From positions 1 through 64,000 of the forward strand of contig MPNM01000015.1 in NCBI GenBank assembly GCA_002239025.1: 64,000 nt of DNA. Direction: 5' to 3'. A model generated the notes under the pieces. That model searched no databases, was not told the origin of the DNA, and saw only the letters and a list, made by a program, of their open reading frames with translations. Source of the DNA: Chloroflexi bacterium bin125. GTDB taxonomy: Bacteria > Chloroflexota > Dehalococcoidia > Bin125. The position numbers were made by a program, and so were the translations under genes. Below, in pieces: positions 31,694-51,685 of this stretch; within the stretch, counting starts at the first letter, position 1; every line of letters begins with the position of its first letter.

Positions 31694-31761
31694 CGCTTTC
31701 GTTTCACCCAAACCGGCGCGGGAGTTCCGCGCCGAAACGCTCTTTGAAAGGAGCACGAAGA

Positions 31762-32142
31762 ATGTCACGCACGATCAACCGAATCGAACTGCTGGGCCGG
31801 GTCGGGACCGACCCCGAACTGCGCCAGACCCGCAGCGGCACGGCCGTCTGCCGCCTGCGGCTGGCGACCGACCGCCGCAACTCGGGTGGGGACACCCAGA
31901 CCGACTGGCACAACCTCGTCTGCTGGGGCAAGACCGCCGAGGCGGTCGCCGAGTACGTCCGCAAGGGCGACCGGATCTACGCCTCAGGTCGGCTCGGCTA
32001 CGACGACTGGGAGGGCCAGGACGGCCAGCGCCGTCTGTCGACCGAGGTTCACGCGAACGAGGTCGTCTTCCTCGACAGCCGCAGTAGCAACGGCAACGGT
32101 CGCCGCAACGACAGCGACAACGACGGGGACCAGCCCTTCTAG
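31762..32142 (+). CDS. ssb: Single-stranded DNA-binding protein, first of three
   Basis: The protein has 126 residues from the ATG at 31762, with GAAAGGAGC 9 bases upstream. The OB fold is complete (MSRTINRIELLGRVGTDPEL, DWHNLVCWGKTAEAVAEYV, GDRIYASGRLGY). The Ser/Asn-rich tail ends in the acidic tip DNDGDQPF used to recruit partner proteins. It coats single-stranded DNA during replication, transfer and Rad52 annealing. Two very similar genes follow in tandem, each with its own ribosome-binding site and hairpin. Confidence 0.92.
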   Translation: MSRTINRIELLGRVGTDPELRQTRSGTAVCRLRLATDRRNSGGDTQTDWHNLVCWGKTAEAVAEYVRKGDRIYASGRLGYDDWEGQDGQRRLSTEVHANEVVFLDSRSSNGNGRRNDSDNDGDQPF

Positions 32143-32184
32143 TCACGCACCACGCCGACCGACGCCTCTCCAGAGGCGCATCTC

Positions 32185-32219
32185 GGGGCCGCTCTCCCAT
32201 CAACGCGGAGAGCGGCCCC
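32185..32219 (+). terminator. 13-bp-stem hairpin after the first ssb
   Basis: GGGGCCGCTCTCC (185-197) pairs perfectly with GGAGAGCGGCCCC (207-219), followed by GCTTCGTT. The stem is almost the same as that after the third ssb. Confidence 0.7.
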
Positions 32220-32309
32220 GCTTCGTTCTAGCACACCGGCGCGGGCAGTCCCCCGATCGAGTCGGGGGCAGGTTGCGCCGTCTCACGCTCTTTGAAAGCA
32301 GCACGACGA

Positions 32310-32675
32310 ATGTCACGCACGATCAACCGAATCGAACTGTTGGGCCGGGTCGGGACCGACCCCGAACTGCGCCAGACGAAGAACGGCACGGCCGTCTGCC
32401 GCCTGCGGCTGGCGACCGACCGCCGCAACGGCTCGGGCGAGAGCCAGACCGACTGGCACAACCTCGTCTGCTGGGGCAAGACCGCCGAGGCGGTCGCCGA
32501 GTACGTCCACAAGGGCGACCGGATCTACGCCTCGGGTCGGCTCGGCTACGACAGCTGGGAGGACCAGGACAGCCAGCGCCGTCAGACGACGGAGGTTCAC
32601 GCGAACGAGGTCGTCTTCCTCGACTCAACGGGAGGCCGGCGCTCGGACAACGGAACGGAGGACGCACCCTTCTAA
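32310..32675 (+). CDS. ssb: Single-stranded DNA-binding protein, second of three
   Basis: The protein has 121 residues from the ATG at 32310, which is preceded by GAAAGCAGC, a weaker ribosome-binding site than in the other two copies. The OB fold is nearly identical to the first copy, differing for example in RQTKNGTA, GESQTDWHN and SWEDQDSQRRQ. The tail is shorter and ends in EDAPF. The conserved fold and tip indicate all three copies are functional, with differences concentrated in the tail. Confidence 0.92.
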   Translation: MSRTINRIELLGRVGTDPELRQTKNGTAVCRLRLATDRRNGSGESQTDWHNLVCWGKTAEAVAEYVHKGDRIYASGRLGYDSWEDQDSQRRQTTEVHANEVVFLDSTGGRRSDNGTEDAPF

Positions 32676-32723
32676 CGGACCCGAGATCACCGAGCCACGA
32701 CGCTCGCGAGACGGGCGCACCCC

Positions 32724-32756
32724 AGGGCCGCCTTCCTGCGAACGGAGGGCGGCCCT
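32724..32756 (+). terminator. 13-bp-stem hairpin after the second ssb
   Basis: AGGGCCGCCTTCC (724-736) pairs with GGAGGGCGGCCCT (744-756) with one G-T pair, followed by GCTTGTTT, a modest T-rich tail typical of a GC-rich rho-independent terminator. Confidence 0.72.
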
Positions 32757-32844
32757 GCTTGTTTAAGCCACTGGTGCGGTCTGCCCCCGACTTGATCGAG
32801 GGACGAACCGCGCCATCACACGCTCTTTGAAGGGAGCAAGACGA

Positions 32845-33213
32845 ATGTCACGCACGATCAACCGAATCGAACTGTTGGGCCGGGTCGGGACCGATCCCGA
32901 GCTGCGCCGGACCAAGCAGGGAACCGCCGTCTGCCGGCTGCGGCTGGCGACCGACCGCCGCAACGGGTCGGGCGACACCCAGACCGACTGGCACAACCTC
33001 ATCTGCTGGGGCAAGACCGCCGAGGCCGTCGCCGAGTACGTCCGCAAGGGCGACCGGATCTACGCCTCGGGCCGGCTCGGTTACGACGAGTGGGAAGACC
33101 AGGACGGCCAGCGCCGCCAGACGACCGAAGTCCACGCCAACGAGGTCGTCTTCCTCGACAACCGGAACGGACATGCCAACGGACGCCAGTCCGATGGCGA
33201 CAAGCCCTTCTAG
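32845..33213 (+). CDS. ssb: Single-stranded DNA-binding protein, third of three
   Basis: The protein has 122 residues from the ATG at 32845, with GAAGGGAGC upstream. The OB fold matches the other two (RRTKQGTAVCRLRLATDRRN, LICWGKTAEA). The tail has an Asn/Gly-rich stretch and the acidic tip SDGDKPF. Nucleotide similarity to the other copies extends upstream into CACGCTCTTTGAA, so whole gene-plus-leader units were duplicated. Confidence 0.92.
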   Translation: MSRTINRIELLGRVGTDPELRRTKQGTAVCRLRLATDRRNGSGDTQTDWHNLICWGKTAEAVAEYVRKGDRIYASGRLGYDEWEDQDGQRRQTTEVHANEVVFLDNRNGHANGRQSDGDKPF

Positions 33214-37127: not shown

Positions 37128-39482
37128 GTGAACCTGTCCGATTTCATCGACACCTACCGCGAAGCGATCACGAAGCGGATCGTCCACAGCTATCCACCGA
37201 AGTACCGTCCGGCCGCGGACGACCGCCCGATGCCTCAGCTCAAGCGCCGCCCGATGGGCGCCCAGGAGACCGCGATTCGCGGCGCCGCACAGAGCTTGAC
37301 CGAGCAGCGCGGCACGACCGTGGTCGGCGAGATGGGCGTGGGCAAGACGTTCATCGCCATCGCCGCCGCACAGCTGGCCGGCTTCCGCCGCGTGCTCGTG
37401 CTCTGCCCACCGCACCTGGTCGGCAAGTGGAAGCGCGAGATCGAGGACACGATCCCGCTGGTCCGCACCGGCATCGCCGACTCGATCACCGACCTGGAGC
37501 AGCTGCGCCGCCAGGAGGGCTCCGGCCCGCAGTACGTCGTCATGTCGCACTCGCGAGCCAAGCTGGGCCACCGCTTCCGGCCCGCCTATTGGATGCGCCG
37601 GCTCAAGGATGAGGACGGCAACCCGGTCCGCGACGAAGAGACCGGCGAGTTCGTCATGACTCCGGCCTGTCCCGACTGCACCCAGCAGATCGTGGACGCA
37701 GAAGGCGTCCCCGTCCCGCACAAGCAGTTGGACAAGAAGCGTCACAAGTGCCCCAACTGCGGGACGCCCCTGTGGACGGCGGAGGCGCGGCCGGTACAGA
37801 CCGTAACGACCGACTACAACGCCGGTCTGATGGCTCGCCGGACTCCCGGCCAAGGGCCGCGCAAGTATCCCCTGGCCGACTACGTCAAGCAGCACATGCG
37901 CGGCTACTTCGACCTCTTGATCGTGGACGAGGTGCATGAACACAAGGGTCGCGGCTCGGCCCAGGGCGTCTCGGCCGGCATCCTGGCCGATGCCTGCGGC
38001 AAGTCGCTGGCGCTGTCGGGCACCCTCATGGGCGGCTACGCCTCGACGCTGTTCCACCTGCTCTACCGGTTCTCTCCAGAGATCCGCTCGGAGTTCGGGC
38101 GGTCGGACGAGCACAAGTGGGTCGAGCGCTACGGATTCCTCGAACAGCGCGTGCGCCACGACCGCGACGACGACCCGACCGAGGACGGCTCGGTCTCGCG
38201 CCGGCGCAACTACCGCAAGCAGGTCAAAGAGCGGCCGGGGATGGCGCCGGCGGCGCTGTTCCACATCATCGGCCACTCGCTCTTCCTCAGATTGGCCGAT
38301 GTCGCTTCGGGACTGCCCGCCTACGAGGAGCAAATCCAGGTTGCGAACATGGACACCGAGGAAGGGATCCAAGGCCTCTCGCAGGCTTCGGCCTACCGGA
38401 TCCTCGCCACGGACCTCAAGCGCGCCCTGCTGCAGGCGATCGAGCGCGGCTCAGCGCGGCTGCTCTCGACCTACCTGCAGGCGCTGCTGGCCTATCCCGA
38501 GGGCTGCACCAGGGGCGAGTCCGTGTTCGACCCGGATACCGGCGACCTGATTGTGCAACTGCCGCCCCTTGACGCAGTGCGTGTCTATCCCAAGGAGCAG
38601 CAGCTGATCGACCTGGTCGCCCAAGAGCGCCTGGCCGGACGGCGAGTGCTGGTCTACGCCACCCACACGGGGACGCGCGACATCACCGGCCGCCTCGAGG
38701 CCCTGCTCAGCCGGCACGGGTTCAAGACGGCCGTGATGAAGGCCGACCGGGTGGAGCCGAAACAGCGCGAGGCCTGGGTCGCGAAGCGGGTCAAGGAGGG
38801 CGTTGACGTGCTCATCTGCCATCCGCGCCTGGTCCAGACCGGGCTCGACCTGATCGCCTTTCCGACGATCTGCTGGTACGAGACCGACTACTCGGTCTAC
38901 ACCATGCGTCAGGCCTCGCGCCGCAGCTGGCGCATCGGCCAGACCCAGCCGGTCAAGGTCGTGTTCATGGCCCATCGGAACACGCTGCAGGCCGACGCGC
39001 TCAAGCTGGTCGCGCAGAAACTACAGAGTTCGCTGGCGGTCGAGGGCGAGCTGCCCGAGGACGGGCTGGCCGCTTACGGCGACACCGGCGACGACCTGAT
39101 GATGGCCCTGGCCCGCAAGCTGGTCTCGGGGGAAACCGACGACGAACCGGTGGAGGTCATCTTCACCCAGGCCCAGCAGGTCGCCGCCCAGGCCGAGCAA
39201 CTGTTGGTTGACGCCGATTGGCAGCGGCCGGTTCCTGATAATGAGGCGCCCATTGCCGCGCTCCCGTCCGGGCGCGAGGAACCGGCCAATCGGCTCGTTC
39301 CTTGCAGCGGGCATCACAGCGCGCCGGGGGCGCAGCCAACCCTGTTCAGCTGGGCCGAGTTCCTGGCGGAGCAACCAGAGCAGCCGAAACCGCGCGGTCG
39401 CAACCCGCGACCCTCGGGACCGTCACTCTTCGATTGGGCGCTAGGGCAACAGCAGGGCGCGAGTCGCGCCGCTGCGGGATAG
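37128..39482 (+). CDS. SNF2/DEAD-type superfamily 2 helicase with zinc-finger insert
   Basis: The protein has 784 residues from the GTG at 37128. Motif I is VVGEMGVGKT near 65-75, Ia VLVLCPPHLVGKWKRE near 88, and the DExH box LLIVDEVHEHKG near 264. Motif III is ALSGTLMGG and motif VI YTMRQASRRSWRIGQ near 600, characteristic of SNF2-like translocases. A zinc-finger insert lies near 185-220 (CPDC and CPNCG). The C-terminal 100 residues are low-complexity. It is the last gene of the operon, before a strong terminator, and probably acts as a DNA translocase in element replication or defence evasion. Confidence 0.88.
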   Translation: MNLSDFIDTYREAITKRIVHSYPPKYRPAADDRPMPQLKRRPMGAQETAIRGAAQSLTEQRGTTVVGEMGVGKTFIAIAAAQLAGFRRVLVLCPPHLVGKWKREIEDTIPLVRTGIADSITDLEQLRRQEGSGPQYVVMSHSRAKLGHRFRPAYWMRRLKDEDGNPVRDEETGEFVMTPACPDCTQQIVDAEGVPVPHKQLDKKRHKCPNCGTPLWTAEARPVQTVTTDYNAGLMARRTPGQGPRKYPLADYVKQHMRGYFDLLIVDEVHEHKGRGSAQGVSAGILADACGKSLALSGTLMGGYASTLFHLLYRFSPEIRSEFGRSDEHKWVERYGFLEQRVRHDRDDDPTEDGSVSRRRNYRKQVKERPGMAPAALFHIIGHSLFLRLADVASGLPAYEEQIQVANMDTEEGIQGLSQASAYRILATDLKRALLQAIERGSARLLSTYLQALLAYPEGCTRGESVFDPDTGDLIVQLPPLDAVRVYPKEQQLIDLVAQERLAGRRVLVYATHTGTRDITGRLEALLSRHGFKTAVMKADRVEPKQREAWVAKRVKEGVDVLICHPRLVQTGLDLIAFPTICWYETDYSVYTMRQASRRSWRIGQTQPVKVVFMAHRNTLQADALKLVAQKLQSSLAVEGELPEDGLAAYGDTGDDLMMALARKLVSGETDDEPVEVIFTQAQQVAAQAEQLLVDADWQRPVPDNEAPIAALPSGREEPANRLVPCSGHHSAPGAQPTLFSWAEFLAEQPEQPKPRGRNPRPSGPSLFDWALGQQQGASRAAAG

Positions 39483-40442: not shown

Positions 40443-40685
40443 ATGGGGCGGAGACGAGCCTCCCAGCGTGTGCTACTCAAGCCGGAGGCGGTCTGGGAGC
40501 ACATTAACCGTCGCAACTTGAGCCAGAATGAGCTGGCTCGGAAGTGCGGGATCTCGTCCGGCTACCTCTCCCAGCTGATCACAGGAACGCGAAGCCCGTC
40601 GGCGGAGGTCCGCAGGCGGCTCCAGTCTGAACTCGGCGCAGAACACTTCGACGATCTGTTCGTCCTGCAGCGATCGCAGGAGTAG
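40443..40685 (+). CDS. XRE-family helix-turn-helix regulator
   Basis: The product has 80 residues from the ATG at 40443; a start at 40425 (MSTERGHG) is an alternative. The HTH reads NRRNLSQNELARKCGISSGY then LSQLITGTRSPSAEVRRRLQ, a clear XRE/Cro-type domain. It is a close paralogue of the minus-strand gene at 49038 (shared LKPxAVWExINRRNLSQNEL), so this segment carries related regulators at both ends in opposite orientation. It probably represses a nearby promoter. Confidence 0.75.
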   Translation: MGRRRASQRVLLKPEAVWEHINRRNLSQNELARKCGISSGYLSQLITGTRSPSAEVRRRLQSELGAEHFDDLFVLQRSQE

Positions 40686-41027
40686 GCAAAACTTCGGTTC
40701 AAGCACGGCCGCCCCGTAGATGCGGTAGGCGGGCCTCTCCTCGACAGCACCGCGGGGCCGCGAATCCCGAGGCTTGCTCTGTTGGCGCGTCGGGATTCGC
40801 CCGAGCCCATGTTGCGTCAATGAAGCAGCAGTTCGATCGACACTATCGAATCGGCCTATAACGCAAGTCTAAGCCAACAACACATTTGTTACATCACTTG
40901 TTACTGTTCACCGTCTCAGGCACGTTCCACAAAATAATCGACGACATGCCGTCTTCAATGCCACAGCTTGTCGCCATTACTTCCATCGATAGCAGGGCCT
41001 GCAGGGAGGAGCGAAAAACCGTGGATA

Positions 41028-41043
41028 AATGCAGTTATACACG
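41028..41043 (+). repeat. Left arm of a perfect 16-bp inverted repeat around the tyrosine recombinase
   Basis: AATGCAGTTATACACG is the exact reverse complement of 42365-42380. The pair encloses 1.3 kb containing only the recombinase gene. The stretch 40686-41128 around it is A/T-rich and holds no other supported gene. Confidence 0.85.
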
Positions 41044-41128
41044 ATTTGTCTCCTTCTCATTCCGAGCATCATAGCGACACCGAGGAGGCACTGGCAAGGC
41101 CGCGAAAATGGCAGGACTAGCGGCAGCC

Positions 41129-42295
41129 CTATGCCGACAGACCGGGACGGGAGGCGTAGTACTGCGCCACTGCGCCACGCGCGGCCGTTTCGTTTCGGGT
41201 GTAGCGAGCCGGCATTGACGAGCTGCGCCAGCGGCCGGCCGTCATCAGGCTGGTCAGTTCAGTCCCGGCGCGAGCTAGGTCCTGAGCCATCCCGACCCTT
41301 GGCGAGTGGCCGCTGAAACCCTTCCCCAGCCCGGCGGACATGGCCGCTTGCCTGATCCGCTTGGTGATCTGGTTGGGCCGCAGGCCGAAGATCGTCGAAT
41401 CGATCTGAGCCGCGCTGCGCCAGCGATCAAGCGCGGCCATTGTCTCGACTGAGACGAACAGAACGACGCCCTCGCCTTCGGAATCCGTCTTCGAACGCCG
41501 GACCAGCAGTCGTCCGCTGCCGTCGCCGACGGCCTCGATGTCCTGCCAGGTCAGATCAGCCACCTCCGACACACGGAGCATCGCGTCACGCATCAAGCTG
41601 ATCACGGCGATGTCTTGCAGGCCGCGTGCGAGCGCGGTCTCCGGACGTTCCCGTCGTCCGCCTCGCCCCCTGCGAGGTTGGCAAACCGTCAATCGTATCT
41701 GGTCGAAGGCAGCCTCCGTCAGCGGCCTAGCTTGCCGCTGCGCGTGTCCGAGCTTACGCCCGGCGGCGCGCAATGTGCGTTTGACCTCTTCAGCGGTACA
41801 CGGATCCGGGACCCCTGCGGTGCGGTGCACGAACGCGATCGCTGACGCCGCAACCCGCACCGTGGCCAGCTTGTGTTGGTGCCGCTCTATCCGCTCGGCC
41901 AGATATGCAGCCACCTGTCTAGGGTCGGCCGGCAGCGGGCTGACCCGCCTGGCCTGCGCCCATTTTCTGAACCGGTTCCATTGGCATCGGTAGTTTCTCA
42001 CGGTGTTGGCCGCAAACTCATGCTCAAGCACAGCTTGCAGATTCTCCAGATCGCCAGCCTCAAGGGCGGAATCGACCCTTTGGAACAGCGGGGGGAAGGA
42101 TGAAGCGGTTGGTGTTTCGCGAAGCTTGTGACGATCGGGTTCCTGGATCGCGCCCTGGAGCAGTAGGCCCTTGGCGGCGTCGGTAAGGGGTCGCTTGGGA
42201 CCGGAGATGGCTTCGGTTGAGATCGCCAATCCTGATCGTCCAGCCCGTGGGGTCTGACCAGCATGGGCCGCCGGAGTAGGGATTCTGTGTTTCAT
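41129..42295 (-). CDS. Tyrosine recombinase (phage-integrase family)
   Basis: The protein has 388 residues from the ATG at 42295. The N-terminal SAM-like core-binding domain (NTVRNYRCQWNRFRKWAQAR) precedes the catalytic domain. All expected residues are visible: arginine in DAMLRVSEVADLTW, lysine in RRSKTD, HxxR in GHSPRVG, tryptophan in GRWRSSS, and the nucleophile tyrosine in ARYTRNE. The protein appears intact. Its first about 70 residues are an extra extension. The perfect inverted repeat 70-100 bases outside each end of the gene is the likely recombination site pair. It could mobilise this 1.35-kb unit or invert it. Confidence 0.9.
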   Translation of the reverse strand: MKHRIPTPAAHAGQTPRAGRSGLAISTEAISGPKRPLTDAAKGLLLQGAIQEPDRHKLRETPTASSFPPLFQRVDSALEAGDLENLQAVLEHEFAANTVRNYRCQWNRFRKWAQARRVSPLPADPRQVAAYLAERIERHQHKLATVRVAASAIAFVHRTAGVPDPCTAEEVKRTLRAAGRKLGHAQRQARPLTEAAFDQIRLTVCQPRRGRGGRRERPETALARGLQDIAVISLMRDAMLRVSEVADLTWQDIEAVGDGSGRLLVRRSKTDSEGEGVVLFVSVETMAALDRWRSAAQIDSTIFGLRPNQITKRIRQAAMSAGLGKGFSGHSPRVGMAQDLARAGTELTSLMTAGRWRSSSMPARYTRNETAARGAVAQYYASRPGLSA

Positions 42296-42364
42296 ATAGA
42301 GAGTGCGAATGGATTGACAAGGATATAGATGCTCTGCTTGTAGCCATCGAGCTCATCGATAAAG

Positions 42365-42380
42365 CGTGTATAACTGCATT
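42365..42380 (-). repeat. Right arm of the 16-bp inverted repeat
   Basis: CGTGTATAACTGCATT matches 41028-41043 in reverse complement with no mismatch. It lies 70 bases upstream of the recombinase ATG, inside its probable promoter region. The following 42381-42806 holds no supported gene and should contain the promoter of the large surface protein. Confidence 0.85.
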
Positions 42381-42806
42381 CGTCAATCCTGTTGCCGTCT
42401 GCTCACCGGAACCAACCTTGCTCTGTCGAGCCAATCGGTCTTCGACAGAGGTCGCCCGCTATCTCAGATTCCGTCTCGCGACCCCAGAGGTCCGCTTGCG
42501 TCCTTTGCATTCAAGGGCCGCGCAGGCTTGATCGGCGAGTGGGTCTGGCAGGAAGAATCCTGTTCTCTGACGAACCACTCAACCCTGGTTGATTGCCAGC
42601 ATCTCGCCAGTTGCACCACCACTCTCGCCAGTGCGGCTCTAAGGGGTGTAGCGCCCCACGTGGTCGGAATGGGAACGGAGGCGAGGCACCTCCGCCCTTC
42701 CCTTGGGCATTTCCAAACGCACTCCAGAAAGCGCTAAGGGCCCCCTTCAACGCTGAGGGACAGGTGGAACCACAACAGGGACCACCCACCGAGAGGACAT
42801 TTCGTG

Positions 42807-45800
42807 ATGAGCAAAGAGAGCCTTGCACAAGACTTGACCCGCGGCCGACGAAGAACTGCAGTCGCTATCTCGGTTCTATTCCTCACCCTGGTGGTGTGCC
42901 TGACTAACTCCGACGACACTGTCCGAGCCCAGGGGGCTCCTCACCTTGTCTGGTCTGCGACGATGACGACGGAAGAGGTGTATCAGGACTTCGGCTTTAG
43001 CAATCTCGGCGGGCATCGAAGAGGCTCCCTGACGGCTGACAGCTTCGTCGTCGACGAAGTCACCTACACGGTGAAGTTGATCGAGGCCTCTGGCTGGTTC
43101 TACATCGGCCTCGATAAAGAGGTCCCGTTCACATTCTCGCTCGAGGTTGACGGCGTCGTGCTGCGATCAGGCGACGCAGACCGATGGTCGTATAGCTCTG
43201 CCAAAGTTCTCTGGTGGTCGGATCAGGATGTGTACTGGGGTGATGGCGACCGGGTGAAACTCGCTCTGTACACCAGCGGCGAGGGTTCTGAATCCACCGC
43301 TGCGACGGGCAGTCCGACCATCACCGGGACCGTGCAGGTCGGCCAGACGCTGACTGCGGTCACGTCTGGGATCTCCGACGAAGATGGCCTGACTAACGTC
43401 TCGTACACCTACCAGTGGATTCGGAACGACGGAGACACTGACACCGACATCACTAGTGCGACATCTTCGACCTACACCGTGGTCGATGCCGACGAGGGCA
43501 AGTACATCAAGGTGAAGGTGAGCTTCACCGACGATGGCGGCAACGACGAGGAGCTGACCAGCGACGCATCCGATGCAGTTGCGGCGAGGCCGAACCGACC
43601 AGCCACGGGAGCGCCGACGGTCAGCGGCACTGTCACTGTCGGTCAAACGCTGACTGCGGTCACGTCCGGGATCTCCGACGCCGACGGCCTAACCAACGTG
43701 TCCTACGCCTACCAGTGGATTCGGAACGATGGGACGACCGACACGGACATCAATAGTGCGACATCTTCGACCTACACCTTGGTCGAGCCCGACCAGGGCA
43801 AGTACATCAAGTTGAAGGTGAGCTTCACCGACGACGCAGACAACAACGAGGAGCTGACCAGCGACGCGACCGCCGCCGTCGCGGCGAGGCCGAACCGACC
43901 AGCTACGGGAGCGCCGACGATCAGCGGCTCGGCCAAGGTAGGCCAGACGCTGACTGCGGATACCTCGGGCATCTCCGACGCCGACGGTCTGACCCACGCC
44001 TCCTACAGCTACCAGTGGATCGCGAACAATGGAAGCTCGGACACCGAAATCACGGGAGCGACCGCCTCGACCTTCTTCGTCCTGGCCGCGTACGAGGACC
44101 AGACGATCAAGTTGCGCGTCTCGTTCACGGACGACGCCGGCCACTCGGAGTCCCTGACCAGCGCTGCGACCGACGCGGTGGCGCTGTCGACCCAGGCGCA
44201 GCAGGCCAACACCGCTGCAACAGGCGCGCCGACGGTTAGCGGCACAGCCCAGGTCGGTCAGACTTTGACGGCGGACACGTCCGGGATCTCCGACGCCGAC
44301 AGCCTGACAAATGTGTCTTATGCCTACCAGTGGATCCGCAACGATGGAACGACGGACACGGACATCACTGGCGCGACATCCTCGACCTACACGCTGGTCG
44401 ATGCCGACCAAGGCAAGCACATCAAGGTGAAGGTGAGCTTCACCGACGACGCGGGACACAGCGAGACCCTGACCAGCGCGGTCACCGGCAGAGTTGCTGC
44501 CAGGCCCAACCGGCCCGCCACGGGAGCGCCAACAATCACTGGAACGGCCAAGGTGGGACAGACGCTGACTGTGGATTCGTCAGGCATCTCCGACGCCGAC
44601 GGGCTGACCAGCGTCTCATACACCTATCAATGGATTGCGAACGATGGAACTACCGACACTGGCATTCAGAACGCCACGGGGTCAACGTACACCATTCTGG
44701 CCGCCTATGAGGGAGACACCATCAAGGTGAAGGTGAGCTTCACCGATGACGCTGGACACAGCGAGAGCCTGACCAGCGAGGCCACGGATGTGGTCTCCCT
44801 AGCTACCCAGGAACAACAATCGAACAACGCGCCCACAGGAACCCCGACGATCAGCGGTACGGCGCAGGTGGGGCAGACGCTGACTGTGGATACGTCGGGC
44901 ATTGCCGATGTTGACGGGCTGACCGAGGTGTCCTACACCTACCAGTGGATTGCCAATGATGGAACGACTGACACTGACATCTCAGGCGCCACTAGTTCCA
45001 GCTATGCGCTGGTCGAGTCGGACGAGGGCAAATACATCAAGGTGAAGGTGAGTTTCACTGACGACACCGACAATGACGAGGAACTGACAAGCGAGGCGAC
45101 GGCAGCGGTGATGCCACCGCCGCCAGGTTATATTACTGTCGCGGTGATGGAGGACACCTCGGTCCCGGACAACATCGTCACCAACTTAAATGTGAGCTGG
45201 AACGACACGAGGTCATGCTCAGCCGAATACAACGCCTACCTAAATGTCGAACCAAGTAGTCAGAGCGGGAGCGAGACGTTAGGAACGCAGCAACACCTAG
45301 GCTCGGCGGCCAAGGAAAGCGATCAGGTTAGCAAGAGCCTCACGGGAATAATGGGCGGGTACCTAGGGTTCACTGTAGAAGTGTTTTGCGGAACAGATGA
45401 ATCAGGACGGATGGTCTCTCAAGTTTCTATTCCCTACTCGTACGGACGACAACCCAAGCCAGGTACATACTCGTCGGAGCCCTCCCTGAGTGCGCTTGCC
45501 GTGAGCCATGGCACATTGACACCCTCATTCAACAGCTACACCTTCGAGTACAAGGTCCCTGACGTGGCCAATGGAGACACCCGAACCACCATCACCGCAA
45601 CCCCCAAAGAGGGTTACTCTGTCGAATTCTTTGAGGCGTCCGACTTATGGGTGTCCGGATTCATGGTCGTTCCATACGGGCCCAATGGTCCTGCAGCGGG
45701 ACAAGACGAAGACTGTAAGCCAGCCTGGCAAGATTCATTGGGCCTACTGTACAAGCTCACTGACGCAGACCCTGATAGCCCAGGCTTCCAGGTAGACTTG

Positions 45801-48374
45801 TACGACGGTACTAACTACCTGATGGTCAACATCCGGCCTATTCTCTATTGCGACTTTGGAGAGAAATACGAAATAGCCATAAGTCGTGCCGACGGCGACG
45901 TGACTCTGACTCGACCTAATAGACCTGTCGGTGGTGATGTACGCATTCTAGGCGGGCCTTGGCGTGGGCCGCTTGTTGGCACCACCCTAAGTGCGAATGT
46001 TTCCGACGTCTGGGACCGCGATGGATGGGATGTAGCAAGCTTCAGCTACCAGTGGCTTGCTGACGATGTCGCCATAACAGGTGCGAACGCTTCCAGTTAC
46101 ACGGTGACCGAGGAGGAGCTGGGTAAAGCCCTGACAGTACGCGTGTCCTTTACTGATGGTCGGGGAGCCGAGGAAACCCTGACGAGTAGTGCAACGACGA
46201 TTGTGCGTTGGTCCAGGCGAACCCCGATAGGGACGCCAGTTGTTGGCGGGAACGTGGAAGTAGGTCAGACGCTAACTGCTGAAACGTCGGCAATCGCTGA
46301 CGACGACGGCCAGACCAATGTGTCCTTCGAGTACCAGTGGATCAGGAACGATGGAGCGACGGATACAGACATCTTCGACGCGACATCTAAGACCTACGCG
46401 CTAGTCGACGCCGACAAGGGCAAGTACATCAAGGTAAAGGTGAGCTTCACCGACGACGCTAACAATGTCGTGACCCTGACCAGCGCCGCCACCGACGCCG
46501 TCCGGGCCAGGCCGAACCGACCAGCCACAGGAGCGCCGACGATCAGCGGCTCGGCCAAGGTTGGCCAGACACTGACTGCGGTCACGTCCGGAATCTCCGA
46601 CGCCGACGGCTTAACCAACGTGTCCTACGAGTACCAGTGGATCCGGAACAATGGAACGACGGACTCGGACATCTCGAACGCTACGAGTTCCACCTACGAC
46701 CTTCTAGCGGCCGACGAGGGCGACACTATCAAGGTGAAGGTGAGTTTCACCGACGACGCCGGACACGGCGAGACCCTGACAAGTGAAGCGACTGAGGCGG
46801 TTTCCCTGGCAACCCAGCAGCAACGATCCAACAGCACGGCGACAGGAGCGCCGACGATCTCTGGTACCGCTCAGGTTGGACAGACGCTCTCAGCCAACAC
46901 GTCGGGAATCTCTGACGCAGATGGGCTGACCAGCGTTTCCTACGAGTACCAGTGGGTGCGGACCGACAGCACTGGCGACATGGATATCTCGGGAGCCACG
47001 GGCAGCACATACATCCTGGTCGACGCCGATCAGGGCAAGACCATCAAGGTGAAGGTGAGCTTCACCGATGACGCCGACAACGACGAGAAGCTGACCAGCG
47101 CCGCGACCGGCACGGTCGCCGCGAGGTCGAATCGACCAGCCACGGGAGCGCCCACGATCAACGGCTCGGCCAAGGTCGGCCAGACGCTGACCGCGGATAC
47201 CTCCGGCATCGCCGATGACGACGGTCTGACGGGCGTGTCATACGAGTACCAGTGGATCGCGAACGATGGAACCTCGGATACCGAAATCACGGGAGCGACG
47301 GCCTCGACCTTCTTCGTCCTGGCCGCGTACGAGGACCAGACGATCAAGTTGCGCGTCTCGTTCACGGATGACGTCGGCCACTTGGAGTCGCTGACCAGCG
47401 CTGCGACCGACGCGGTGAAGCTGTCGGCTCAGGCGCAGCAGTCCAACAGCGCTGCAACAGGCGCGCCGACGATTAGCGGCACAACCCAGGTCGGTCAGAC
47501 GTTGACGGCGGACACGTCCGGGATCTCCGACGCCGACGGCCTGACCAACGTGTCCTACGCCTACCAGTGGATGCGGAACAACGGGACGACCGACACGGAC
47601 ATCACCGGCGCGACATCCTCGACCTACACGCTGGTCGATGCCGACCAGGGCAAGTTCATCAAGGTGAAGGTGACCTTCACCGATGATGCCGACAACGACG
47701 AGCAGCTGACCAGTGCCGCGACCGGCACCGTAGCTGCCAGACCGAATCGGGTAGCCACGGGATCTCCGGCGATCAGCGGCACTGCGCAGGTCGGGCAGAC
47801 ACTGTCTGCGGACACCTCAGGCATCTCCGACGCCGACGGTCTGACAAACGCGTCCTACGCCTATCAGTGGATCCAGAACGATGGATCGACGGACTCGAAC
47901 ATCTCCGGCGCGACATCCTCTACCTACACGCTGGTCGACGCCGACAAGGACAAGAACATCAAGGTGAAGGTGAGCTTCACCGATGACGAGGGCAATAGCG
48001 AGAATCGGACCAGTCAGCCGACGGGGACGGTCGCTCCGCCGCCGCTCACGGTCCGGCTTGAGAAACCTGCCGCCTCGCACGATGGTTCCAGTGCCTTCAC
48101 CTTCGAGATCCGGTTCAGCGAGGAGTTCAAGCTCAGCTTCCGCACGCTCAAGTTCCATGCCTTTGATGTGACCGGCGGGACCATCCTGAAGTCGAAGCGC
48201 GCCGAAACGGGCAGCAACATTCACTGGAGGATCACGGTAGAGCCGCAATCCGCCGGCGATGTCAGCGTCTTCCTGCCCGCCACGACGGACTGCACAGCCC
48301 AGGGAGCCATCTGCACCGGCGACGGCAGGAAACTGTCCAACCGGCTCGCTTTCACCGTTTCCGGGCCCAGTTAG
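42807..48374 (+). CDS. Giant secreted protein with 13 Ig-like repeats
   Basis: The protein has 1,855 residues from the ATG at 42807, with GAGAGGAC eight bases upstream (GTG one codon earlier is possible). A signal peptide (AVAISVLFLTLVVCLTNSDD) is followed by a unique N-terminal domain to about 160. Thirteen roughly 100-residue repeats follow (VGQTLTADTSGISDADGLT... YQWIRNDG... IKVKVSFTDD): six at about 166-770, a divergent one near 1035-1137, and six at 1138-1741. Between the blocks lies a unique region with a cadherin-like beta domain (LSALAVSHGTLTPSFNSY, near 891). There is no obvious sortase or membrane anchor at the C-terminus. A surface adhesin or self-contact role is inferred. Convergent terminator follows. 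Confidence 0.88.
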   Translation: MSKESLAQDLTRGRRRTAVAISVLFLTLVVCLTNSDDTVRAQGAPHLVWSATMTTEEVYQDFGFSNLGGHRRGSLTADSFVVDEVTYTVKLIEASGWFYIGLDKEVPFTFSLEVDGVVLRSGDADRWSYSSAKVLWWSDQDVYWGDGDRVKLALYTSGEGSESTAATGSPTITGTVQVGQTLTAVTSGISDEDGLTNVSYTYQWIRNDGDTDTDITSATSSTYTVVDADEGKYIKVKVSFTDDGGNDEELTSDASDAVAARPNRPATGAPTVSGTVTVGQTLTAVTSGISDADGLTNVSYAYQWIRNDGTTDTDINSATSSTYTLVEPDQGKYIKLKVSFTDDADNNEELTSDATAAVAARPNRPATGAPTISGSAKVGQTLTADTSGISDADGLTHASYSYQWIANNGSSDTEITGATASTFFVLAAYEDQTIKLRVSFTDDAGHSESLTSAATDAVALSTQAQQANTAATGAPTVSGTAQVGQTLTADTSGISDADSLTNVSYAYQWIRNDGTTDTDITGATSSTYTLVDADQGKHIKVKVSFTDDAGHSETLTSAVTGRVAARPNRPATGAPTITGTAKVGQTLTVDSSGISDADGLTSVSYTYQWIANDGTTDTGIQNATGSTYTILAAYEGDTIKVKVSFTDDAGHSESLTSEATDVVSLATQEQQSNNAPTGTPTISGTAQVGQTLTVDTSGIADVDGLTEVSYTYQWIANDGTTDTDISGATSSSYALVESDEGKYIKVKVSFTDDTDNDEELTSEATAAVMPPPPGYITVAVMEDTSVPDNIVTNLNVSWNDTRSCSAEYNAYLNVEPSSQSGSETLGTQQHLGSAAKESDQVSKSLTGIMGGYLGFTVEVFCGTDESGRMVSQVSIPYSYGRQPKPGTYSSEPSLSALAVSHGTLTPSFNSYTFEYKVPDVANGDTRTTITATPKEGYSVEFFEASDLWVSGFMVVPYGPNGPAAGQDEDCKPAWQDSLGLLYKLTDADPDSPGFQVDLYDGTNYLMVNIRPILYCDFGEKYEIAISRADGDVTLTRPNRPVGGDVRILGGPWRGPLVGTTLSANVSDVWDRDGWDVASFSYQWLADDVAITGANASSYTVTEEELGKALTVRVSFTDGRGAEETLTSSATTIVRWSRRTPIGTPVVGGNVEVGQTLTAETSAIADDDGQTNVSFEYQWIRNDGATDTDIFDATSKTYALVDADKGKYIKVKVSFTDDANNVVTLTSAATDAVRARPNRPATGAPTISGSAKVGQTLTAVTSGISDADGLTNVSYEYQWIRNNGTTDSDISNATSSTYDLLAADEGDTIKVKVSFTDDAGHGETLTSEATEAVSLATQQQRSNSTATGAPTISGTAQVGQTLSANTSGISDADGLTSVSYEYQWVRTDSTGDMDISGATGSTYILVDADQGKTIKVKVSFTDDADNDEKLTSAATGTVAARSNRPATGAPTINGSAKVGQTLTADTSGIADDDGLTGVSYEYQWIANDGTSDTEITGATASTFFVLAAYEDQTIKLRVSFTDDVGHLESLTSAATDAVKLSAQAQQSNSAATGAPTISGTTQVGQTLTADTSGISDADGLTNVSYAYQWMRNNGTTDTDITGATSSTYTLVDADQGKFIKVKVTFTDDADNDEQLTSAATGTVAARPNRVATGSPAISGTAQVGQTLSADTSGISDADGLTNASYAYQWIQNDGSTDSNISGATSSTYTLVDADKDKNIKVKVSFTDDEGNSENRTSQPTGTVAPPPLTVRLEKPAASHDGSSAFTFEIRFSEEFKLSFRTLKFHAFDVTGGTILKSKRAETGSNIHWRITVEPQSAGDVSVFLPATTDCTAQGAICTGDGRKLSNRLAFTVSGPS

Positions 48375-48462: not shown

Positions 48463-48753
48463 CTAAGGTGGCTTTCTGTCAGGTTGCGGAGTCGATGGTT
48501 GCGAGGCGCAAGGCAATAGAGTGTCCAGCTTGCCTCGGTCGGCAGCGAGCGCCAGAAGCGAGAGCAGGTGACCGGCATCGGGTTTGGCGCCGCGGCGCCA
48601 TCGGTGCACGGTGCGGACATTGACGCGAAGTTTTCGCGCCAACTCTCGCCAGGACAGGCCGGCGGCCTGGCGGAACTCGTCCAGGCGTTGGGGAAAATCG
48701 ACTGGAAACTGCGACGGCTCGAGAACGTAAACAGACTGCTGGCGCCGACCCAT
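48463..48753 (-). CDS. XRE-like helix-turn-helix protein
   Basis: The product has 96 residues from the ATG at 48753, with GGAG about 10 bases upstream, overlapping the previous gene region. The HTH is FPQRLDEFRQAAGLSWRELA then RKLRVNVRTVHRWRRGAKPD. It resembles the next gene upstream (FPERL...GLSWERMA...LHRWRRG), so the two are duplicated regulators. It is the last gene of a four-gene minus-strand operon. Target unknown. Confidence 0.7.
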   Translation of the reverse strand: MGRRQQSVYVLEPSQFPVDFPQRLDEFRQAAGLSWRELARKLRVNVRTVHRWRRGAKPDAGHLLSLLALAADRGKLDTLLPCASQPSTPQPDRKPP

Positions 48754-48757
48754 CGTC

Positions 48758-49048
48758 TCAACTCCGCTTCCTCCGGATGACCAGCAACTCCTCATCCAGC
48801 AGCGTGCCGAGTCCTTCCGGCATGAACGTGGCCAGGCGCACGAGCGCCAGCATGGCCGGACCGTTGGGTACCGTGCCGCGTCGCCAGCGATGTAGCTGCC
48901 GCCCGTCGACGCCCATCGCGGCAGCCATCCGCTCCCAGGACAGCCCGGTCATCTCTTTGATCGCTTGCAAGCGCTCGGGAAAGTCGTCCGGCAACAGCGC
49001 TATACCCGGGCGCAACATCAGCTCGGGACCATTTCGCCTAGTTCTCAT
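48758..49048 (-). CDS. XRE-like helix-turn-helix protein
   Basis: The product has 96 residues from the ATG at 49048, which overlaps the upstream XRE gene by 11 bases; a GTG one codon earlier is possible. The HTH is LSWERMAAAMGVDGRQLHRW. It stops four bases before the start of its paralogue at 48753, so the two are co-translated. Confidence 0.7.
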   Translation of the reverse strand: MRTRRNGPELMLRPGIALLPDDFPERLQAIKEMTGLSWERMAAAMGVDGRQLHRWRRGTVPNGPAMLALVRLATFMPEGLGTLLDEELLVIRRKRS

Positions 49049-49283
49049 CACAGCGCTCCAGCACGAACAGGCAATCGAAGTTCGGAGTGTCGAGTGCCGA
49101 CTGCAGGCGCCTGCGAACCTTCGCCGACGGACTACGCCGACCGCCGATCAGCTGGGACAGATAACCGGGCGAGACATTGGTCAAGCGGGCCAGCTCGTTC
49201 TGACTGAGATTGCGCCGATTAATCTGTTCCCACACCGCATCGGGCTTCAGCTTCACCCTGGCGTATGGTCGTCTCCGTTTCAT
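49038..49283 (-). CDS. XRE-family helix-turn-helix regulator, paralogue of the gene at 40443
   Basis: The product has 81 residues from the ATG at 49283, overlapping the stop of the preceding small gene (ATGA). The XRE HTH reads INRRNLSQNELARLTNVSPG then YLSQLIGGRRSPSAKVRRRL, about two-thirds identical to the plus-strand regulator at 40443. The N-terminus is very basic (MKRRRPYARVKLKP). Three successive HTH genes in one operon suggest layered control of the neighbouring surface protein or recombinases, which is inference. Confidence 0.75.
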   Translation of the reverse strand: MKRRRPYARVKLKPDAVWEQINRRNLSQNELARLTNVSPGYLSQLIGGRRSPSAKVRRRLQSALDTPNFDCLFVLERCDEN

Positions 49284-49975: not shown

Positions 49976-51685
49976 GTGTCAATCCAAACAGAACTGACCC
50001 CCGCCGCGCTCTACGCGCGCGTCTCCAGCGACCGCCAGGACGTCGACCTCTCGGTCGCCGCTCAGTTGCGCGCGCTGCGAGACTTCGCCGAGCGCAGCGG
50101 CTACGTCATCGCGCGCGAATACATCGACGAAGCCGAGAGCGGCCGGATCGCCAACCGCCCCCAGTTCCAGCGGATGCTGGATGAGGCCAGAGCGCCGGAC
50201 GCCCCCTTCCAGGAGATCCTGGTCTGGAAGTTCTCCCGCTTCACGCGCAAGCGAGAGCACGCCGTCGCCTTCAAGTCGATGCTCCGGCGGCGCGGCATCC
50301 GCGTTACGTCAATCACCGAGCACGCCGACGACACCCCCACCGGCAAGCTGATGGAGGCGATCATCGAGAGCGTCGATGAGTTCTACTCCGAGAACCTCGC
50401 CCAGGAAGTGACCCGCGGCATGCGCGAGGCTGCCTCGCGCGGCTTCTGGGTCGCCACCTGGGCGCCTTACGGCTACCGCAAGGTCCACGTCCCCGACGGC
50501 GCCAAGACCCGCCCCAGGCTGGAACTCAACTCGCCTGCCGACGCCGTCATGCGGCGCATCTTCGACGATGCGCTGTCCGGTAAGAGCGTGCTCGACATCA
50601 CCCGCGCGCTCAACGCCGACGGCATTCCTACGACCAACGGCAAGCCCTGGCTCAAGACCACCGTGCACCGCTTGCTCACCAACGAGGCCTACACCGGCAC
50701 CCTCGTCTGGGGCCTCAACGCCAAGGACGGCGCCCCGCCGGTGCGGGTCGAGGACGCCTTCCCCGCCATCGTCTCGCGCCCCGAGTTCGAGCGGGTCGGG
50801 CAGCTGATGCAAGCGCGCCGACCCGAGCGCGCCCATCCCAGGCGAATCGCCAGCCGCTACCTGCTCTCCGGCCTCGTCCGCTGCGGCTCATGCCGCCGGG
50901 CGCTGACCGCCGCCGAAGCCAAGAGCGGCAAGTACACCTACTACGTCTGCCAATCGAAAATCAAGAAGGGTTCGGAAACCTGCGACACGCCCCGTCTAGC
51001 GGCCAAGCAGTTCGAGCAGTTGATTATCGACCAACTCCGCGAGCACGTCTTGACCCAGAGCAACATACGATCCTTGGTCACACTTGTCGACGAGGAAATG
51101 GACGGCCAGGCTCACGAGCAGCGCCAGAAGCTGGAGACGATCGAACTACAACTCGCGGAGGTCCAGCACCGCCTGGACCGGATCTGGCAGGTCATCGAGA
51201 CCTCCAACCTCGATGCCGCCGACGCGGGTGATCGCATCCGCGAGCACAAGCAGCGCCAGGAACAGCTCGAAATTGCCGCCGTCAAGGCTCGGAACGTCCT
51301 GGCCGAGCGTCGCCAACTGCTGGACAGGGCCGATGTCATCGCCGTCTTCGCGGCGCAGATGAGCGAGTTCCTGCTGACCAGCCAACTCACCGAGACGAAG
51401 GCGTTCATCAATTCATTCGTCAAGCGGATCACGGTTCGGCCCGGCCGGGCCGTGATCCGCTACGCCATCCCCATGCCCGAAGACAGCCCCATCGGGCCCG
51501 CTGACGCCGCGGAGGTTGGCCTAACTGAAGGAATTATGAGTACGGTACGTGTTGGTACGCCCGGAGGGACTCGAACCCCCGACCCCCAGGTCCGAAGCCT
51601 GGTGCTCTATCCGCTGAGCTACGGGCGCACGATGTCAGCTTACCCCGGTCGCCTCGGATGTTCGTATGGCCAAACGTACGCCTAG
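49976..51685 (+). CDS. Large serine recombinase (integrase), frame continues through tRNA-Arg
   Basis: The open frame has 569 codons with a GTG start. The resolvase domain has the nucleophile serine in LYARVSSDRQD (near residue 18) and FSRFTRKREHAVAFKSMLRR. A recombinase domain (TTNGKPWLKTTVHRLLTNEA), a zinc ribbon (RCGSCRRALTA...YYVCQ) and a coiled coil near 385-450 follow. Large serine recombinases integrate and excise elements with a directionality factor. The last about 50 codons (GTPGGTRTPDPQVRSLVLYP) are simply the antisense of the tRNA-Arg gene at 51553-51628, so they are not original recombinase sequence. The natural C-terminus was probably changed by integration next to the tRNA. Confidence 0.9.
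   Translation: MSIQTELTPAALYARVSSDRQDVDLSVAAQLRALRDFAERSGYVIAREYIDEAESGRIANRPQFQRMLDEARAPDAPFQEILVWKFSRFTRKREHAVAFKSMLRRRGIRVTSITEHADDTPTGKLMEAIIESVDEFYSENLAQEVTRGMREAASRGFWVATWAPYGYRKVHVPDGAKTRPRLELNSPADAVMRRIFDDALSGKSVLDITRALNADGIPTTNGKPWLKTTVHRLLTNEAYTGTLVWGLNAKDGAPPVRVEDAFPAIVSRPEFERVGQLMQARRPERAHPRRIASRYLLSGLVRCGSCRRALTAAEAKSGKYTYYVCQSKIKKGSETCDTPRLAAKQFEQLIIDQLREHVLTQSNIRSLVTLVDEEMDGQAHEQRQKLETIELQLAEVQHRLDRIWQVIETSNLDAADAGDRIREHKQRQEQLEIAAVKARNVLAERRQLLDRADVIAVFAAQMSEFLLTSQLTETKAFINSFVKRITVRPGRAVIRYAIPMPEDSPIGPADAAEVGLTEGIMSTVRVGTPGGTRTPDPQVRSLVLYPLSYGRTMSAYPGRLGCSYGQTYA
51553..51628 (-). tRNA. tRNA-Arg (anticodon TCG)
   Basis: The minus-strand sequence folds as a tRNA: acceptor GCGCCCG with CGGGCGT (first pair G-T), D arm GCTC...GAGC, anticodon stem CCAGG/CCTGG with loop CTTCGGA, T arm with GGTTCGAGTCC, discriminator A and encoded CCA (51553-51555). 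Its 3-prime end faces the serine recombinase, the usual orientation for an element integrated at a tRNA end. The G1-T72 wobble at the acceptor top is uncommon and could reflect a rebuilt 3-prime end. Confidence 0.95.

Follow-up and report, generated by a model that had tools for sequence, protein, structure and literature searches.

A probable invertible genetic switch carrying its own Cre-family recombinase, with relatives beside restriction genes

A recombinase gene between inverted repeats

Within the 64-kb stretch of Chloroflexi DNA analysed here, which we call the window, two copies of the 16-bp sequence AATGCAGTTATACACG stand in inverted orientation and enclose a 1.35-kb unit whose sole clear gene encodes a Cre-family tyrosine recombinase (Table 1). 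An earlier note, made from these letters alone, had described a perfect inverted repeat around a recombinase with an intact catalytic set, and both points are borne out: the two copies are exact, and the R-K-H-R-W-Y set of Cre-type tyrosine recombinases is complete. The open reading frame matches the Phage_integrase and SAM-like Pfam domains, and its only matches among solved structures are Cre (E 3.5e-16) and the engineered Cre derivative Tre. The window copy of the unit looks intact, and we infer that it still works, with the recombinase acting on the two proposed sites.

Table 1. Features of the recombinase unit and its immediate surroundings in the window.
Feature	Position	Strand	Remarks
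27-codon frame MATSCGIEDGMSSIILWNVPETVNSNK	40894..40977	-	Takes the place of the relatives' first restriction gene; possibly a remnant
21-codon leader frame	40977..41042	-	GTG start in the repeat, crosses the left site; putatively coding
Left 16-bp inverted repeat copy, AATGCAGTTATACACG	41028..41043	+	Core of the B-type (palindromic) recombination site, 41020-41043
Ribosome-binding-like sequence, AGAAGGAG	41050..41057	-	Just inside the left site
Outward promoter-like site, TTGCCA-N18-TATGAT (10/12)	41068..41097	-	Unit 3' end, reads across the left site; prediction only
Cre-family tyrosine recombinase, 388 aa	41129..42295	-	Catalytic set R241 K269 H330 R333 W356 Y365
Right 16-bp inverted repeat copy	42365..42380	-	A-type (half-palindromic) recombination site, upstream of the recombinase gene
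123-codon open frame	42366..42737	+	Starts in the right repeat copy; codon GC pattern not clearly coding
1856-aa repeat surface protein (ZirU family, Ig-like repeats)	42804..48374	+	Divergent from the recombinase, A side

When up to three mismatches are allowed, AATGCAGTTATACACG has three matches in the window against 0.12 expected. The third is the left copy's own palindrome (41020-41035), so that the left site is a 24-bp near-palindrome, CGTGgATAAaTGCAgTTATaCACG (41020-41043); the outer side of the right copy is not palindromic. On extension the pair matches at 20 of 22 bases, where ten shuffles reach at most 18. The earlier note had proposed looking for the 16-mer elsewhere in the genome, and a search of the 3.68-Mb assembly returned only two exact copies, both at the unit, the nearest further match being a single one with two mismatches in unrelated sequence. 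Exact searches of viral contigs gave 44 single matches to the 15-mer and 10 to the 16-mer, never two per stretch, numbers that by our own rough estimate are about those of chance. A chance origin of the window repeat is best excluded by conservation, since related repeats occupy similar positions in relatives.

The two sites differ in their arms beyond the repeat, for which relatives show two kinds, A (GGGGAC-AATTGCC) and B (GTGTGA-AATTGCC). Judged by these outer arms the window unit appears to be in what we call below the ON-type orientation, an assignment of A and B that draws on short similarity (CACGG, GTC). At the B side the promoter-like site, which is the only such match in 40600-42900, is followed by the ribosome-binding-like sequence and by the leader frame, whose stop overlaps the next ATG (TAATG). 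The 27-codon frame has no family match in PADLOC, and the B-side sequence of the window has no homologue outside its own genome among 61 genomes searched. As the window has no recognisable B-side target, its unit may be an orphan. On the other side the right repeat copy lies, as the earlier note had it, between the recombinase gene and that of the surface protein, which are divergent, with 420 bp between the unit and the surface gene. A candidate hairpin or terminator on this A side was rejected, its folding test not being significant. Directly after the surface protein gene come two small helix-turn-helix-like genes on the minus strand (48463-49051).

The unit lies within the cargo region of an element whose backbone ends near 39480 and recurs in the same genome. 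The helicase gene of the element (37128-39482) has three more full-length copies (91-92%) and a contig-edge copy (96%) in this genome and many copies in the genus, and the similarity stops near 39480, where variable cargo begins. At its 3' end, the reading frame for a large serine recombinase/integrase (49976-51685) overlaps a tRNA-Arg(TCG) gene (51553-51628), pointing to the tRNA gene as the place where the surrounding element is integrated. Three successive single-strand-binding protein genes stand in tandem at 31744-33213.

Relatives of the unit and their orientation

A scan of genome contigs for related recombinases yielded 35 loci, the closest six of which (L043-L048) come from Acidimicrobiia metagenome-assembled genomes and have about 60% recombinase identity. 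All close relatives are metagenome-assembled genomes, and those with the unit are sponge-associated bacteria. In all of these six for which both flanks are available (5/5, L043-L047) a perfect inverted repeat of 15-19 bp encloses the recombinase gene; L048, where the contig breaks off on the upstream side, is included in the tree and left out of this count. The repeat of the five, AATTGCCGTTATCCC(TCAC), is related to that of the window and lies at a similar distance from the gene ends, giving units of 1.24-1.34 kb, and AATTGCCGTTATCCC occurs exactly twice in each of the five genomes, both times at the unit. The same arrangement, with a 15-bp repeat, surrounds the recombinase gene of L146 (59% recombinase identity). 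In the recombinase tree the window, L043-L047, L146 and L048 form one branch (94/99), which is separate from 13 distant relatives with a segment of about 350 bp upstream of the recombinase, most of these segments lying between two copies of a similar core in inverted orientation. An inverted repeat enclosing the recombinase gene was not found in the Gemmatimonadota, Bryobacterales and alphaproteobacterial relatives.

Several of these loci have features of their own. In L146 (1-3541) the recombinase unit, with repeat TATAAGTTGCGTTAT, adjoins a candidate defence pair (PADLOC PDC-M30/M41), and the end of the contig holds another, incomplete copy of the site. A MITE-like insert of about 100 bp with 17-bp terminal inverted repeats, CAGGCTGCTGAAAAAGT, adjoins the recombination site in L046 (4759-4860). 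Among the distant relatives, ten loci (L066, L067, L072-L074, L076, L140, L141, L142 and L144) have their segments of about 350 bp, upstream of the related recombinase, bounded by inverted copies of a ATGCCGTTAT-like core that is up to 23 bp long, often beside a divergent fn3 surface-protein gene and seen in a single orientation; genome G578 has five recombinase copies. These segments probably constitute a second, fim-like type of switch. On Methylobacterium plasmids, loxP-like 13-8-13 palindromes lie about 40 bp upstream of Cre-like genes (L027, 3785-3818; L028, 3899-3932).

The units of the five relatives occupy one common hotspot, apparently chromosomal. The start of the recombinase gene adjoins the A arm in L106, L107 and L108 and the B arm in L109 and L110. 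With all loci turned so that B is on the right, L106, L107, L108 and L109 are mutually collinear upstream in long stretches, as is L110 with L108, and the unit has the same direction in L106, L107 and L108 and the opposite one in L109 and L110. In the best pair, L106 and L109, the flanks are collinear on both sides and the unit between them is reversed. The comparison of orientation, which the earlier note had proposed for related strains, here finds three units one way and two the other. Relatives, compared genome with genome, accordingly carry both orientations between the same flanks, in a segment bounded by inverted repeats with identical cores, as in known invertons. Inversion of the unit is strongly supported, because opposite orientations at the same chromosomal place are what inversion between two sites predicts. 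Judging from the contig names (k141_), the words used in assembly probably exceeded the repeat in length, which makes an orientation artefact caused by the repeat unlikely.

Restriction genes at the B arm and the proposed switch

The first gene beyond the B arm of the five relatives points away from the unit, with about 37-70 bp between the site and its start. This gene is part of a type IIG system in L107 and L108 and of a type III system in L106 and L109, and in L110 it encodes a large Mrr_cat_2+ResIII restriction protein. At its 3' end the unit of these relatives has AGGGGGAC (GGGGGG in L110), followed by a GTG or TTG start at the repeat edge. From just inside the site a leader frame, (V/L)RDNGN.., crosses into the B flank in all five, and in each of them (5/5) the restriction gene has an NTGACC start that overlaps the leader stop; in L106 and L109 the overlapped start is TTG, with another in-frame start nine bases later. 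Such an overlap of stop and start occurs at 6.9% of comparable positions, which for three independent gene types corresponds to a chance probability of about 3e-4. When the 5' end of the unit is joined to the leader frame instead, no start with a ribosome-binding site results. A sigma-70 promoter scan at the threshold used for the window gave no match in the four relative units scanned. As a ribosome-binding site and start for this frame are present only at the 3' end of the unit, the orientation with this end facing B would be ON and the reverse OFF. In the relatives the unit thus probably switches the neighbouring restriction genes on and off; their A side has no consistent gene.

Taken together, the arrangement makes it probable that the 1.35-kb unit is an invertible genetic switch carrying its own Cre-family recombinase. 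The recombinase would act on the two inverted sites and turn the unit round, and the outer arms, the palindromic B type near the regulated gene and the A type, would stay fixed. At its 3' end the unit would supply a promoter that reads outwards, together with a ribosome-binding site and with a start codon situated at the repeat. With this end facing B, transcription and the short leader frame would cross the site, and translation of the first downstream gene, whose start the leader stop overlaps, would be coupled to that of the leader (ON); with this end facing A, the downstream gene would lose its promoter and translation start (OFF). Promoter function and ON/OFF expression are what we infer from these signals. 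On balance, and with less assurance, we lean towards a wider proposal, that entire restriction operons are gated by a portable Cre-family inversion cassette, which moves the promoter, the ribosome-binding site and the start codon as one, with a leader coupled to the restriction gene that happens to follow, and which stays at a defence hotspot while the operons are exchanged. Restriction systems protect against phage, yet they can harm the cell and block gene uptake. If the proposal is true, an ON/OFF cassette with its own recombinase, serving different restriction operons, would let populations hedge immunity against openness, and the cassette would be a ready-made tool for switching genes.

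In the window itself the regulated gene could be that of the giant surface protein. The present orientation would then be OFF, and inversion would turn the promoter and leader towards the frame at 42366-42737 and the surface gene at 42804; the inversion mechanism is the same and only the target differs. Such a target, which we consider possible though doubtful, would suit a gene that has a repeat copy between itself and the divergent recombinase gene, that has no promoter-like match on the plus strand in 42380-42900, and that follows, at a distance of 67 bp, a 123-codon frame whose start falls exactly in the right repeat and which would join the promoter and leader start of the unit after inversion. 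Distant relatives also pair such recombinases with fn3 or SdrD-type surface genes, in some cases through the segments of about 350 bp bounded by inverted copies of a similar core. However, relatives with the window-type unit have their restriction genes at B and nothing consistent at A, the coding signature of the 123-codon frame is weak, and the surface gene is separated from the unit by the 420-bp gap with its candidate hairpin about 40-70 bp from the site. The region upstream of the surface gene has no homologue outside its own genome among 41 genomes searched. The earlier note's idea of phase variation was the right one, but control of the surface protein by the unit is only possible, the regulated side in relatives being B; a change of promoter for this protein fits less well, as its gene lies on the A side and the sole promoter-like site in 2.3 kb points away from it.

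Three other readings do without a switch. The earlier note had also allowed for movement of the unit as a 1.35-kb element, and a small mobile element with the inverted repeat as its ends would explain why the unit is enclosed by inverted repeats and stands beside different genes in different genomes. Yet each genome has one unit and two sites, rather than the several copies or the movable unit with flank-independent ends of an insertion sequence or transposon, and five relatives have the unit at the same hotspot, with conserved outer arms and a leader frame that fits the adjacent gene, so that movement is disfavoured and this reading is very improbable. A Cre-lox-like module for dimer resolution, with the palindromic left site as resolution site and the right half site as an operator in the recombinase promoter, is hardly more plausible: in its favour are the Cre-like recombinase, the loxP-like palindromes upstream of related plasmid genes and the sequence TTGACG-N17-TTTATC across the right site, but the two sites have a common core and enclose the gene in inverted orientation, both orientations of the unit exist in relatives, and the five units of the latter lie in a shared, apparently chromosomal hotspot. 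It is also unlikely that the repeats serve only as regulatory binding sites, for the recombinase or another protein, in a window copy that does not invert; the single assembly of this genome does show no alternative orientation, whereas the intact catalytic residues and the two orientations in relatives argue for inversion.

Comparison with known switches

In a literature search, the descriptions of promoter inversion concerned surface structures, and restriction systems were reported to vary by hsdS shuffling or repeat-tract switching. No paper on a recombinase-carrying inversion cassette upstream of restriction operons was found within the part of the literature covered, which is weak evidence of novelty. 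The Salmonella Hin system is a flagellar switch of the form hixL-hin-promoter-hixR (reviewed in PMC11868660). Like it, the unit proposed here to be a switch is a segment of about 1 kb with its own recombinase gene and an outward promoter-like site between inverted sites, and the ON/OFF control of an adjacent operon proposed from sequence would be of the same kind. Unlike Hin, which is a serine recombinase, the enzyme of the unit has only tyrosine recombinase domains, of the Cre family; the end that would be switched also has a ribosome-binding site, with a start codon at the repeat, and restriction operons would be the targets in relatives. Tyrosine recombinases, inverted sites and promoter switching are shared with the invertible promoters of the fim type (FimB/FimE, RecV, Mpi/Tsr and others). 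Systems of this kind mostly control surface structures, and as a rule the gene for the recombinase is not part of the segment that inverts. The segments of about 350 bp in distant relatives resemble this type more than the window-type unit does.

With Cre/loxP of phage P1 the unit shares its closest solved recombinase and sites with partly palindromic arms. In P1, loxP serves cyclisation and dimer resolution. The unit differs in that inverted sites flank the recombinase gene itself. Restriction-modification varies within populations in phase-variable restriction systems as well (PMC4948785, PMC7096588, PMC7394358). In some of these, inversion at hsdS, as by pneumococcal PsrA, reassorts the specificity genes; in others, a repeat tract puts type III or type IIG genes in or out of frame. 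In contrast to these, the cassette proposed here would switch a whole operon from upstream, and different operons share it.
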